A DNA stretch of 64,000 nucleotides from Thermoplasma acidophilum DSM 1728 (GTDB taxonomy: Archaea; Thermoplasmatota; Thermoplasmata; Thermoplasmatales; Thermoplasmataceae): NCBI RefSeq assembly GCF_000195915.1, contig NC_002578.1, positions 1,421,644 through 1,485,643 on the forward strand. The letters are read 5' to 3'. The position numbers and the translations under genes were made by a program. Shown in pieces: positions 51,477 through 54,161 of the stretch (its first letter is position 1; every line of letters begins with the position of its first letter). Below the pieces are notes generated by a model that worked only from the letters and a program-made list of their open reading frames with translations, was not told the origin of the DNA and made no database searches.

Positions 51477-52343
51477 TCATTTTAGCTGCCTTATGGATTC
51501 GGCCTTCACCGTGACAGGTATTGGTACCATGCTCTCGACAAGCTGCACGGTAACTTCCTCCTTCACGGAATCTATCGATATTATCTTGGCCTTCTCCCCC
51601 TTGAACGGCCCCTCAACGAGCTCCACCAGCGAACCCAGCTCCAGGCCGGATACGGCTGGCTTTGGCGTGAGATAATGCGCAATCTCCTCCAGATCTATCT
51701 TGCCAGACACCATGCCCTTGTATCCCCTTATATCCCTGGCAAGGTACGATATCCTGTCGGGATGCATGGTCTCCACGAATATGTAGCCCTTTATTTCGTA
51801 CGGAGCCATTATGGCATAAACCTCGCTTGGAAGCTTCTTTCCGTCTCCTGATCGATCCTCCCTGTCCTTCTCTGCCCTGTTGTTGAGGTCTATCGCGACC
51901 TGAACCTCTGATCCAACGGTCGTCTTGAGTGCAACGATAACGGGCTTCAGTACGATCGTGACGGACTTTGTGAACCTGTGCACGCCGTCCTCGGATTCTA
52001 TTGAAAAATTCAGTGTCATTTTATCGTTTGGATACGCACCCTTTGGCGCATTTATGGCCATATCGATATTCTTTGACTTGAGCGGATCTATATCGATATC
52101 GTCCTCCAGACTGCCCTGTCCCAGGAGCGAGACCTCGTTCTTCTTGCTGATGTTCAGCACGGCCTTCCAGTCCACAGTGCTGTCGTTCTCCTCGACGCTG
52201 TAACCTATGCTGACCCTGAACTTCCTCTTCACATTCTGAATGTTCTTTATGCTGAATCGCAGGTTGATCGTTTCGCCAGCACCGACCTCTATGCGGTCTG
52301 GAACGTCAGACGATATCCATTCATATTCCTTGCTGTTTTCCAT
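51477..52343 (-). CDS. spt5: Transcription elongation factor Spt5 with N-terminal extension
   Basis: The product has 288 residues. The C-terminal half is a NusG/Spt5: an NGN domain (EVYAIMAPYEIKGYIFVETM, then DRISYLARDIRGYKGMVSGKI) and a KOW domain (LELGSLVELVEGPFKGEKAKII). Ordinary archaeal Spt5 is about 145-155 residues; here roughly 135 extra residues come first, made of beta strands (GETINLRFSIKNIQNVKRKF, VTIVLKP at its end) like an immunoglobulin-type or CARDB fold. ATG 52343 (MENSKEYEW) has SD aaggtgg and directly follows the secE stop, the usual archaeal secE-spt5 order. Confidence 0.85.
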   Translation of the reverse strand: MENSKEYEWISSDVPDRIEVGAGETINLRFSIKNIQNVKRKFRVSIGYSVEENDSTVDWKAVLNISKKNEVSLLGQGSLEDDIDIDPLKSKNIDMAINAPKGAYPNDKMTLNFSIESEDGVHRFTKSVTIVLKPVIVALKTTVGSEVQVAIDLNNRAEKDREDRSGDGKKLPSEVYAIMAPYEIKGYIFVETMHPDRISYLARDIRGYKGMVSGKIDLEEIAHYLTPKPAVSGLELGSLVELVEGPFKGEKAKIISIDSVKEEVTVQLVESMVPIPVTVKAESIRQLK

Positions 52344-52353
52344 GGATTCCACC

Positions 52354-52576
52354 TTAAGGTATCTTGAAATAAACATCCATAAGCAGGTATATTATGAAAC
52401 CAACGGCCACCTATGATGAGAAGACCAACTGCGGTTATTACCAGCACCTTTATGTATTCATCCCTCGTCGGCTTTCTCGCCATGCGGAGGATTCTCGCAT
52501 ACTTCCCCTTCCCAATGCTGGAAAACCTTCTCTCCAGATTCTGCTGAATTTCCTCAGCCTTATCTTCAATTGACAC
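52354..52576 (-). CDS. secE: Preprotein translocase subunit SecE, apparent frameshift
   Basis: GTG 52576 starts SIEDKAEEIQQNLERRFSSI, then RKPTRDEYIKVLVITAVGLL, the SecE/Sec61-gamma amphipathic helix and membrane segment. After GLLIIG the frame turns into nonsense (RWFHNIPAYG), while the frame one base away continues AVGFIIYLLMDVYFKIP to TAA at 52354-52356, exactly what SecE needs and directly before the spt5 SD. One surplus base in ggtggcc (52405-52411, opposite strand) would explain this. SecE is essential, so this is a sequencing error or recoding rather than loss. GTG is chosen since the TATA box near 52615 puts the mRNA start at about 52590 and ggtgat serves as SD. Confidence 0.8.
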
Positions 52577-52632
52577 CAAATCACCGAAACAAAACATTAT
52601 AAAAAAAGGAAATTTAAAGGTATGGTCTGGGC

Positions 52633-54161
<1,529 letters not shown>

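Follow-up and report, generated by a model that had tools for sequence, protein, structure and literature searches.

A one-base frame break in secE of Thermoplasma acidophilum, probably an error in the deposited genome sequence

The secE locus and its frame break

The analysed window comprises 64,000 nucleotides and corresponds to positions 1421644-1485643 of the single-contig genome of Thermoplasma acidophilum, which has 1,564,906 bases. Coordinates refer to this window unless the genome is named. On the minus strand, the genes for 16S rRNA (52656-54127, Rfam RF01959), secE and spt5 occur in this order. Between the 16S rRNA and the GTG start codon of secE (52576-52574) there is a gap of about 79 nt. 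This stretch (52577-52655, minus strand; ACCTTTAAATTTCCTTTTTTTATAATG) is strongly conserved across the genus and probably represents the promoter of secE, the terminator of the 16S rRNA, or both. The Shine-Dalgarno region of spt5 (AAGGTGG) lies directly after the secE stop codon or overlaps it. The spt5 gene, which codes for a protein with Spt5-NGN and KOW domains, is intact (51477-52343, minus strand, with its ATG at about 52343).

The coding region of secE is found in two frames. Codons 1-57 (52406-52576, minus strand; VSIEDK...LLIIGG, protein VSIEDKAEEIQQNLERRFSSIGKGKYARILRMARKPTRDEYIKVLVITAVGLLIIGG) are read normally and are matched by the SecE models. At the junction GGT-GGC-C-GTT (GGTGGCCGTTGG, 52411-52400, minus strand) a +1 shift is required, and the remainder of the gene (52354-52404, minus strand; VGFIIYLLMDVYFKIP) continues in the +1 frame up to the stop codon TAA (52356-52354). 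Including this stop, secE has a length of 223 nt, which is not divisible by three. The initial annotation had described a secE with a single-base frameshift at this position, with 57 normal codons and with the completing part and its TAA in the next frame, just 5′ of the Shine-Dalgarno sequence of spt5. This description, including its coordinates, could be confirmed.

When no shift is assumed, the 0 frame continues past the junction (RWFHNIPAYGCLFQDTLRWNPW..., RWFHNIPAYG...; 52289-52405, minus strand), enters spt5 and ends at 52289, so that a product of 95 residues is obtained from the GTG. The continuation has no counterpart in relatives, with which its tail agrees at only 2 of 17 residues. 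The joined halves (full-length peptide VLVITAVGLLIIGGVGFIIYLLMDVYFK) score above the curated cut-offs of both PF00584 (24.2 bits, gathering cut-off 22.7) and TIGR00327 (52.1 bits, cut-off 36.2), whereas the 0-frame product (peptides VLVITAVGLLIIGGR and WFHNIPAYGCLFQDTLR) has no match to PF00584 and reaches only 32.8 bits for TIGR00327. As the joined halves pass both cut-offs and the 0-frame product fails both, the SecE match of the joined halves is not due to chance. According to hydropathy, the conserved amphipathic helix of the joined product is followed by a single complete membrane helix, and the best 19-residue Kyte-Doolittle mean of this product is 2.79, compared to 1.86 for the 0-frame product. 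A further characteristic shared with SecE/Sec61-gamma is the position adjacent to spt5, which is found here and in the congeners. What differs is that the gene in this record is broken by one surplus base, and that its 0-frame product stays under the cut-offs.

SecE in related genomes

SecE was searched for in 117 genomes of the order, and 104 of these have a match. Only in the genome analysed here is secE split between two frames. The initial annotation had suggested a comparison with other Thermoplasma strains, and this was made with other species of the genus. All four congeneric genomes have, at the same locus, an uninterrupted secE of 222 nt, one base shorter than the copy in T. acidophilum, a result which favours a sequence error. 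A second copy of secE was looked for in the T. acidophilum genome, and none was found. Pattern scans for the same site in collections of genome contigs and viral contigs (genome_contigs and viral_contigs), from which records very near the window may be absent, also retrieved no second copy.

The nearest congener has a secE with 91% DNA sequence identity, and its protein is 100% identical to the two joined halves over residues 2-73. Upstream of the junction, 16 codons differ synonymously and none non-synonymously; downstream of it there are 4 synonymous and again no non-synonymous differences (20 versus 0 for both halves). The unchanged protein sequence points to purifying selection which acted on both sides of the junction until the present or very nearly so. 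The lack of non-synonymous changes and the identity of the protein thus indicate that purifying selection has maintained the proper frame of the downstream half until very recent times, if not to the present day.

DNA alignment also bears on which base is surplus. At the junction, all four congeners encode Gly-Gly-Val (protein ...IIGGVGF...). For this reason, a coding-strand C is the most plausible surplus base, one of the two in GGCC (52406/52405, minus strand), a position which agrees with the length counts. The corresponding form of the site without this base is GGTGGCGTTGG, and the restored SecE would therefore contain Gly-Gly-Val. The extra base had initially been given as a G; this holds for the plus strand, and the congener alignment refines it to the C on the coding strand.

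One-base frame breaks elsewhere in the genome

We compared 800 kb of the T. acidophilum genome (two 400-kb blocks) with 1.58 Mb of a congener (G004), the genome of which is complete (1,584,804 bases). In this sample, 8 clean single-base frameshifts were found in 668 conserved genes, which represent 543 kb of aligned coding DNA. The count of eight is approximate, because weaker candidates (transposase copies and short or antisense ORFs such as those over rRNA) were excluded by hand. It corresponds to about 1 frameshift in every 68 kb of these alignments, or about 1.5 per 100,000 bases, and such a value is compatible with the error rate expected of a genome that was finished in 2000. The scattered distribution of the eight frameshifts is what a background error rate would produce, although some of those outside secE may instead be genuine mutations in genes that the cell can do without.

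Besides secE, the affected genes code for a RecJ-like DHH protein (448 aa), an EtfB-like protein (260 aa), an ABC-type ATPase (305 aa), a protein of 201 aa, a peroxiredoxin (157 aa), a membrane transporter-like protein (431 aa) and a homologue of SBDS/SDO1 (230 aa). These names were taken from comparison with PDB chains or from the sequence itself. In the SBDS/SDO1 homologue, one base is missing near codon 188, at about genome position 1343151. The other sites (RecJ-like, EtfB-like, ABC-type ATPase, 201-residue, peroxiredoxin and transporter-like genes) are located at about genome positions 1200133, 213342, 86757, 1223497, 1415910 and 174716. In six of the eight cases a base is missing, and in two there is one surplus base. 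The sites are unrelated, and no motif common to all eight is apparent by eye. The genes for the SBDS/SDO1 homologue, the EtfB-like and the RecJ-like protein are intact in all four congeners. Among PDB chains, none from the same species could be recognised that covers the SBDS, peroxiredoxin, EtfB-like or RecJ-like protein.

In the reciprocal comparison, about four to six conserved genes of G004 were found to be interrupted by a similar single-base frameshift, at about 64564-65239, 226417-227999, 274592-275033 and 1371749-1372755 of that genome. A tRNA for which ARAGORN reports a two-base anticodon (genome 1240259-1240347) was considered as another error in T. acidophilum and was rejected, as its sequence is conserved in the congeners. 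It is best read as a putative intron-containing tRNA-Met.

Sequence error, recoding or mutation

The initial annotation had left it open whether the frame break is a sequence error or a programmed shift in a core gene. The first of these is favoured by the congeners, which do not have the base, by the intact selection and by the background of frameshifts, while none of the defining features tested supports a programmed shift. If ribosomes shifted by +1 at GGT-GGC-C-GTT, in a programmed or constitutive manner, the two halves would be joined into full-length SecE, and the completing frame is indeed intact up to its stop. Shine-Dalgarno-like elements and uncommon codons help frameshifting elsewhere, and secE has a Shine-Dalgarno-like AGGTGG directly at the shift site, followed by an uncommon 0-frame codon (CGT, 3.2 per 1000). 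No other features of the site favour a shift. The purine run can be explained by the Gly-Gly codons, which are also present in the in-frame relatives: AGGTGG or AGGAGG arises from them in the congeners, where it is read in frame. The nonamer GGT-GGC-CGT is itself read in frame in two full-length conserved genes (genome 1298661-1299491 and 45784-46539), GGC-CGT is read in frame in further genes, and the expected reader of CGT, tRNA-Arg (gcg), is present. The site is not a slippery sequence, because a GGC-reading tRNA that has moved by +1 onto GCC would have a mismatch at the middle base. Downstream RNA structure is also not unusual and folds no better than shuffled sequences (z = -0.15). The shift is not conserved, with all four congeners being in frame and the break being unique among the 104 genomes with a match. 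Programmed frameshifting is known in archaea, from fucA1 of Sulfolobus solfataricus (-1) and possibly from the haloarchaeal virus HSTV-2 (+1) (PMC8211752). As in secE, fucA1 is an archaeal gene in two frames, and its uninterrupted relatives differ by one base. At the fucA1 site there are an A-rich slippery heptamer and a rare codon, together with a putative stem-loop; the shift is found in two strains and has been tested by in vitro experiments (PMC8211752). In contrast, secE has neither a slippery run nor such a structure, its break is not shared, and the required direction is +1 instead of -1. We therefore regard a programmed shift as very improbable, and this applies equally to what it would entail, namely a lineage-specific +1 shift at GGC-C, with no classical slippery features, on which an essential translocon subunit would depend in one archaeal species.

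Frame restoration by transcriptional slippage, which would drop one base from the mRNA, does not require a ribosomal signal. The site (GGTGGCCGTT) has no run of more than two identical bases, whereas characteristic slippage sites are, for example, runs of A or T (PMC3711429), and this explanation is so improbable as to be nearly negligible. An unlikely explanation, to which we give a little more weight, is a genuine insertion of one base that arose very recently in the sequenced strain and is tolerated, with SecE being made as a 95-residue variant. Private indels are possible in laboratory strains, and tolerance could be explained because the conserved cytoplasmic helix is encoded within the first 57 codons, as are about 14 of the hydrophobic residues that form the membrane helix; the 0-frame product keeps a moderately hydrophobic stretch (1.86, with 2.79 being normal). 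On the other hand, Arg, His and Asn would be placed mid-way in the sole membrane helix, the tail is unlike that of any relative (the 2 of 17 residues mentioned above), and the product stays under the curated SecE cut-offs. Furthermore, SecE has proved to be essential in those organisms in which it was studied, this genome has no second secE, and the downstream half of the gene shows no decay.

We consider it likely, with a probability of about 0.88, that the frame break in secE is a single-base sequencing or assembly error in the deposited genome, and we infer that the surplus base is absent from the DNA of the organism. The gene would then be an ordinary, functional secE in which a C of GGTGGCC (coding strand) has been called twice. 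It would encode a standard 73-residue archaeal SecE/Sec61-gamma, which would be read in one frame and without recoding. An error is by far the most likely explanation because an essential gene, the protein of which is identical to that of the nearest neighbour, is broken only in one record which has other such breaks. The lesion is isolated and motif-free, shows no decay on either side, and occurs in a record with other such lesions. Its context is not especially typical for an error, since GGCC is not a long homopolymer.

No publications were found that deal with SecE or with errors in this genome. Comparable cases have been described. Singleton frameshifts that are validated by BLASTp are expected to be sequencing errors (Antonov et al. 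2013, PMC3711429). The secE break resembles these GeneTack singletons in being validated by homologues while not being common to them. In S. solfataricus P2, the aIF1 (SUI1) gene had been annotated with a frameshift and proved to be full-length upon resequencing; a peptide ascribed to a shifted product has also been reported (PMC8211752). Like secE, it is a core archaeal gene whose frame was broken by one base in a genome record of early date. The two cases differ in that the aIF1 sequence was checked by resequencing.

In summary, the secE frameshift is almost certainly not a new biological mechanism, because four relatives do not have the base, the surrounding code is preserved and there are at least seven similar slips in the same record. 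If the surplus base were real, an essential archaeal gene would depend on recoding, which would be notable. As it is, a core gene of a reference genome is probably broken on paper only. Automatic annotation may omit SecE from this genome or label it as a pseudogene, and at least seven further conserved genes, found in half of the genome, are exposed to the same risk.
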